Positions 2,013-10,906 of a DNA stretch of 47,434 nt are shown piece by piece. Origin of the DNA: Desulfobacteraceae bacterium (GTDB lineage: Bacteria; Desulfobacterota; Desulfobacteria; Desulfobacterales; Desulfosalsimonadaceae); NCBI GenBank assembly GCA_003597945.1, contig QZJS01000058.1, forward strand, positions 1 through 47,434, given 5' to 3'. Within the stretch, counting starts at the first letter, position 1; each line of letters opens with the position of its first letter. The position numbers were made by a program, and so were the translations under genes. A model generated the notes under the pieces. The model did no database searches and had not been told where the DNA came from. It saw nothing but the letters and a program-made list of their open reading frames with translations.

Positions 2013-2088
2013 ACCAGAAAAAGCCAAATCTGCCGCGAGACAGAGACGGAAAGCCACGGGTCTCACTGAGACAGCCGGGTTGCCTGCA
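2013..2088 (+). ncRNA. GEMM-I class cyclic-dinucleotide riboswitch aptamer
   Basis: The RNA has the landmarks of the GEMM (c-di-GMP-I) family in order: a GCCAAATC segment (2023-2030) leading into a stem TCTGCC/GACAGA (2029-2034 with 2039-2044) capped by a GCGA tetraloop (GNRA); then GACGGAAAGCC (2045-2055), matching the family's GACGCAAAGCC; then a second hairpin with arms GTCTC (2060-2064) and GAGAC (2068-2072); and the 3' strand GCCGGGTTGCC (2074-2084), matching the family's conserved GCCGGGTTGCC-type end. Hand alignment to the Vibrio Vc2 aptamer puts G at the guanine-contacting position and swaps the neighbouring G-C pair to C-G, which favours c-di-GMP, but a cGAMP-binding relative is not excluded. 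It would sense the second messenger and control the SGNH lipoprotein. Confidence 0.8.
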
Positions 2089-2109
2089 AAAAGGTTCCCG
2101 GCTTTTTTT
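2073..2109 (+). terminator. Riboswitch-linked intrinsic terminator
   Basis: AGCCGGG (2073-2079) pairs perfectly with CCCGGCT (2097-2103), followed by a run of seven T (2103-2109). The left arm is also the conserved 3' strand of the GEMM aptamer, so aptamer folding and the terminator compete for the same bases. This is the usual design of a transcriptional ON switch; the direction is inferred. Confidence 0.8.
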
Positions 2110-2154
2110 GCGTGGTCAGGCATTCACAATTTTATAAAAACCAAGGAGATCGAA

Positions 2155-10578: not shown

Positions 10579-10906
10579 TCTGATCGTCCGATACAAGCAT
10601 TTTATAAAAAAATTCCGCGTCCTCCTTTATGAATACGAAGAAAATATCCTCCGAATGAAGGTTAAAATAAACTGTACAGACGACTCCACCCTTTTCATCA
10701 AAGAATATCTTTTCGGAAATAAAGAAAGAAAATATTCCTATCATTGGGCAAATCCCTCTGATGTCATGATTTGTCGATGGGATAATTCCGGCCACTGGCC
10801 AGATATTTCAACCTATCCGCATCATAAGCATATTGATAATCAGGTTATTGAATCCACGGAAACCTCAGTAGCCGATGTGTTGAGCCTTATCAGTCAAAAA
10901 ATGTAA
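10571..10906 (+). CDS. TumE-type toxin (DUF6516 family)
   Basis: This 111-residue basic protein has the TumE/toxin_6 pattern: an N-terminal strand-rich domain (YKHFIKKFRVLLYEYEENILRMKVKI), then ICRWDNSGHWPDISTYPHHKH with the conserved RWDN...PHHKH signature (about 72-92). TumE toxins are thought to act as ribonucleases or translation inhibitors held in check by TumA. Its ATG lies inside the antitoxin gene's last codons, so translation is coupled. No other gene of the module is present. Confidence 0.8.
   Translation: MLDLIVRYKHFIKKFRVLLYEYEENILRMKVKINCTDDSTLFIKEYLFGNKERKYSYHWANPSDVMICRWDNSGHWPDISTYPHHKHIDNQVIESTETSVADVLSLISQKM

Follow-up and report, generated by a model that had tools for sequence, protein, structure and literature searches.

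Class I c-di-GMP (GEMM-I) riboswitches are typified by Vc2 of Vibrio cholerae, the type example of Rfam family RF01051, which has a three-helix fold, a GNRA-capped P2, an interhelical C44-G83 pair and a ligand pocket of G20, A47 and C92, with G21-C46 pairing at the bottom of P2. The Geobacter GEMM-Ib RNAs (such as Gmet_0970 and pilM) carry A20 and respond to cGAMP, and an A20G change in Gmet_0970 shifted selectivity from cGAMP to c-di-GMP (PMC6456294). Position 20 has been termed a selectivity factor and not a hard filter, and changes in lower P2 can also alter selectivity (PMC9262584). The pilM riboswitch was described in the same work as an ON switch in which the terminator is made from the 3' strand of the aptamer (PMC9262584).

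The RNA analysed here lies in a 47,434-nucleotide stretch of DNA from an uncultured Desulfobacterales lineage (the window). It has the three-helix fold, GNRA-capped P2, C44-G83 pair and G20/A47/C92 pocket of Vc2 but differs from it in having C21-G46 at the bottom of P2, a short P3 and a terminator that uses an aptamer strand. With the Geobacterales GEMM-Ib RNAs it has the C21-G46 scaffold in common, and the pilM layout of strand sharing (which bears on architecture and not on the ligand) is also found in it. However, the window RNA has G20 where those RNAs have A20, and its C22-G45 pair replaces U22-G45, so that it corresponds to the published c-di-GMP-selective A20G mutant of Gmet_0970. We consider it likely that this RNA is a class I c-di-GMP riboswitch acting as a transcriptional ON switch, with both the ligand and the direction of switching predicted from sequence and from analogy with the Geobacter systems.

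Aptamer identity and fold

A covariance scan with Rfam returned a single RNA in the window, at positions 2014-2088 of the forward strand (on which all features described below lie), where RF03167 (c-di-GMP-I-GGC) matched with 70.6 bits (E 8.2e-15) against a threshold of 59. The first-pass annotation had called a GEMM-type riboswitch here and had proposed a search with RF01051. In the genome search, this c-di-GMP-I model matched at the same place with 62.3 bits against a threshold of 35, so that the assignment to class was confirmed, but the top Rfam model is RF03167 and not RF01051.

Vc2 numbering was placed via the conserved landmarks given in PMC3764141, putting G14 at 2017, G20 at 2023, C21 at 2024, C22 at 2025, C44 at 2047, G45 at 2048, G46 at 2049, A47 at 2050, G83 at 2074, C92 at 2083 and C93 at 2084. 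The predicted fold consists of P1 (2015-2017/2084-2086), P2 (2024-2025/2048-2049 and 2029-2034/2039-2044, capped by a GNRA tetraloop, GCGA, at 2035-2038) and P3 (2052-2062/2070-2081), with the interhelical C44-G83 pair present as 2047 C with 2074 G. The landmarks of the class follow in the order that had been read from the letters, namely the GCGA-capped P2 (2029-2044), GACGGAAAGCC (2045-2055), P3 and GCCGGGTTGCC (2074-2084). In the window copy, the P2 pair 30-37 is replaced by a C-A mismatch.

Searching the window's genome and related ones (60 genomes) gave 98 aptamers, and pair covariation was counted over the 92 distinct aptamer sequences. P2 and P3 positions were paired in 89-92 of the 92, many of them with two-sided changes, C44-G83 was invariant, and P1 pairing was weaker (65-71 of 92). 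The pocket bases of the window aptamer are canonical. G20 (2023), the predicted base-selecting contact to the ligand, is retained as the first-pass annotation had claimed; 94 of the 98 aptamers have G here and the other 4 have A. A47 (2050), which stacks between the bases of the ligand, and C92 (2083), its predicted Watson-Crick partner, are invariant among the 98. Taken together, the window RNA is, as judged from its letters, a well-supported further member of a known riboswitch class and an ordinary example of it.

Lower P2 and the choice of ligand

The C21-G46 pair (2024 with 2049) is swapped relative to G21-C46 of Vc2, a difference that had been put forward as a possible covariation. The covariation is genuine: the 21-46 pair is C-G in 73, G-C in 23 and U-G in 2 of the 98 aptamers, and it is paired in 92 of 92 distinct sequences against a mean of 58.5 in shuffle controls that ignore kinship among the sequences. 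Because 69 of the 82 aptamers in the window's own Desulfobacterales family carry G20/C21-G46, this form represents a common sub-type there; it is widespread in the family and not peculiar to the gene studied here. A pattern scan over GTDB found the scaffold, among the matches listed, in Desulfobacterota, Sulfurovum and other Campylobacterota, Methylomonas, Halomonas and others. Copies outside Geobacter were mostly G20/C21/C22 and those of Geobacterales mostly A20/C21/U22 among these matches, with the pattern parse of named genomes placing a few Geobacter copies one base off.

From G20, the ligand is predicted to be c-di-GMP rather than cGAMP, because the window RNA resembles a natural counterpart of the Gmet_0970 A20G mutant on the same scaffold. 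The genome, which is 88% complete, has 14 GGDEF matches; 13 of these cover the motif, and all 13 keep D at the position where, in our alignment, the cGAMP-making Hypr enzymes have S, so c-di-GMP is the likely available ligand. The swapped C21-G46 pair sits exactly at lower P2, which would count against a firm c-di-GMP call.

One proposal built on this pair is that Desulfobacterota RNAs with G20/C21-G46 make up a functional sub-class of their own on the cGAMP-riboswitch scaffold, in which the lower-P2 pair would shift ligand selectivity (e.g. to both c-di-GMP and cGAMP) and whose members would jointly run a secreted-hydrolase regulon; we think this unlikely. Another is that the window RNA resembles GEMM-Ib in function and naturally senses 3',3'-cGAMP, or responds to both dinucleotides. 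The effect of lower-P2 changes on selectivity would favor it, as would the C21-G46 pair, the CGGAAAGCC..GGGTCT..AGCCGGGTTGCC letters and the aptamer-strand terminator that Geobacterales A20 RNAs have in common with the window. However, position 2023 is G where GEMM-Ib has A20, this single change was enough to move the Geobacter RNA to c-di-GMP, and no Hypr-type GGDEF was seen in the 13 of 14 matches that could be read in the 88% complete genome, making the cGAMP reading quite improbable. Four aptamers with A20, the base linked to cGAMP selectivity, occurred in relatives (L011 and L100 in genome G002, L026 in G055 and L032 in G053), and two of them share a single genome that belongs to the same family as the window. 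The natural occurrence of one scaffold in both G20 and A20 forms offers a ready comparison for ligand change in GEMM-I riboswitches.

Strand sharing, switching direction and the Rfam variant model

An intrinsic terminator is predicted at 2074-2109, in which GCCGGG (2074-2079) pairs with CCCGGC (2097-2102) ahead of seven T residues (2103-2109), with a computed energy of -19.2 kcal/mol for the terminator region. The left arm is the 3' strand of P3 including G83, in agreement with the earlier suggestion that the terminator borrows the conserved 3' strand of the aptamer, and C92/C93 (2083-2084) are able to pair with GG at 2093-2094, extending the stem to include the predicted ligand partner. A permissive folding test for terminators that overlap the aptamer was dropped because 59% of shuffled controls passed it, and it was replaced by an uninterrupted-helix test and by covariation at position 88. 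Of the C21-G46 family copies, 62 of 70 showed 6 bp or more of unbroken pairing between the aptamer 3' strand and the strand just before the T-run, versus 34% of shuffles (mean length 9.5 bp versus 5.1 bp); of the G21-C46 copies, 1 of 11 did so. The terminator of the window is among the weaker ones, with a 6-bp core that is reached by 11% of shuffles, and the terminator claim therefore rests on the family evidence. The strongest sign of strand sharing is that aptamer base 88 and the terminator arm change together in relatives: 32 of 35 copies with A88 have T opposite it, 18 of 25 with G88 have C, and 56 of all 60 have a pair of some kind.

The minimum free energy fold of the whole 100-nucleotide leader formed neither the aptamer nor the terminator state cleanly. 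It uses a pairing of the 5' strand AAAAAGCC (2018-2025) with GGCTTTTT (2100-2107), which spans the right arm of the terminator and the U-run, and this pairing may represent a third state or simply follow from the conservation of these letters. A consensus sigma-70 promoter was looked for upstream of the riboswitch and not found; this and the leader fold count against the proposed switch.

We reasoned that ligand binding should oppose termination, because aptamer and terminator compete for the same nucleotides and cannot coexist. Without ligand, the aptamer 3' strand (G83-G88 and C92/C93) would pair with the newly made CCCGGC, and the resulting hairpin with its U7 tract would halt RNA polymerase ahead of the gene. 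Binding of c-di-GMP at G20 and C92, with stacking on A47, would let the P2/P3/P1 aptamer retain the strand, no hairpin would form, and transcription would run on into the lipoprotein gene.

Class I switches of both signs are known (Cd1 is OFF and pilM is ON), and the G21-C46 copy on contig 24 of the same genome has no shared terminator and looks translational, so one might suppose that the ligand lowers expression here or that the terminator goes unused. Such an OFF or translational switch is very improbable given that aptamer and terminator are mutually exclusive at this locus and that the Shine-Dalgarno site is outside the terminator, 33 nucleotides downstream of it.

Least credible is the view that the RNA belongs to the Rfam variant c-di-GMP-I-GGC and that its pocket has changed to accept some unknown ligand: RF03167 is the top-scoring family (70.6 bits against 59), but the conserved G of its consensus at model position 37, the Vc2 A47 position, is A in the window (2050) and in all 29 fetched loci inspected among the best RF03167 matches from 198 genomes of the phylum. 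The name "GGC" would denote G20/G47/C92, going by the consensus of the model. Because the Desulfobacterota matches carry canonical A47, the RF03167 label alone is no sign of an altered ligand in this phylum and gives by itself no reason to read a variant ligand there.

The lipoprotein gene and other copies of the riboswitch

The gene under the predicted ON switch encodes a GDSL/SGNH-hydrolase lipoprotein of 250 amino acids (2155-2907), starting at ATG 2155 after the Shine-Dalgarno sequence AAGGAG (2143-2148). The identity of this target, as first annotated, was borne out by a PF00657 (Lipase_GDSL) match of 30.5 bits (cut-off 23.6), by an N-terminal signal with the lipobox ISAC (C26), and by blocks I, II, III and V (GDS 46-48 with S48, G75, GxND 109-112 with N111, and DxxH 225-228 with D225 and H228), whose catalytic residues show little or no variation across an alignment of 22 proteins. 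Neither an NCBIfam model nor an informative PDB relative was found for the protein. It is predicted to be a membrane-anchored lipase-like enzyme of the periplasm or surface. A longer in-frame reading frame from TTG 1987 runs across the aptamer and was judged to be spurious leader read-through, because the ribosome site and the signal peptide belong to the 2155 start. Downstream of the gene, GGGGCTTCA/TGAAGCCCC followed by T7 (2948-2982) probably serves as a terminator, which makes 2155-2907 a likely single-gene unit.

Among 21 homologues of the lipoprotein found in relatives, three have an aptamer directly upstream (the second copy in G022, and those in G028 and G005:C107), one each in three further genomes of the family. 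Counted over the 22 lipoprotein-family genes examined, 18 have no aptamer upstream, excluding the riboswitch as a fixed partner of this lipoprotein; the link is either recent or often lost. In G022 (C39:14440-16402) the lipoprotein gene occurs twice, adjoining, with a riboswitch only between the two, before the second copy.

The window's genome (G000) has four aptamers. Two on contig 59 are of the C21-G46 type with long shared terminators and precede a second GDSL-like protein (below the Pfam cut-off) and a pectinacetylesterase-family protein (PF03283, 73.2 bits). On the same contig, a response-regulator/GGDEF gene (G000:C59:8632-9567) lies about 1 kb upstream of a c-di-GMP aptamer (10609-10683), with one secreted-protein gene between them. 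The fourth aptamer, on contig 24, is of the G21-C46 type and precedes the gene of a secreted FN3/CBM96 protein. This copy, L002 (G000:C24:7032-7121), and its homologues L015, L101, L110, L116, L126, L127 and L132 are G21-C46 aptamers that all stand before members of a single family of such proteins, and a CTCCTT-like stretch just 3' of the aptamer complements the AAGGAG ribosome site in most. This suggests that translational control by the G21-C46 sub-type may exist beside the transcriptional type.

In relatives, such aptamers precede proteins that carry N-terminal signals and match the penicillin amidase, alkaline phosphatase and endonuclease/exonuclease/phosphatase families. Head-to-tail arrays of nearly abutting c-di-GMP-I aptamers also occur in several genera of the order, with six copies in L275 (G044:C109:690-1206), five in L276 (G052:C75:11273-11672), four in L277 (G052:C79:7082-7405) and L278 (G055:C1:232183-232510), and three in L279 (G026:C121:730-1017). 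They precede similar small secreted proteins of about 150-170 amino acids, several with a motif like AQAGI..YxDDDG, and no terminator between the array copies was seen by eye. A 2022 survey of the c-di-GMP-I class counted 347 doublets and 12 triplets (PMC9481103).

The target is unremarkable in kind and the predicted mechanism is coherent. The sister copies before the GDSL-like and pectinacetylesterase-like proteins suggest that some of the secreted hydrolases may follow c-di-GMP, and any effect of the switch on the envelope is one that we infer. If the predictions hold, a lipase-like envelope enzyme would be under direct c-di-GMP control in this uncultured Desulfobacterales lineage.
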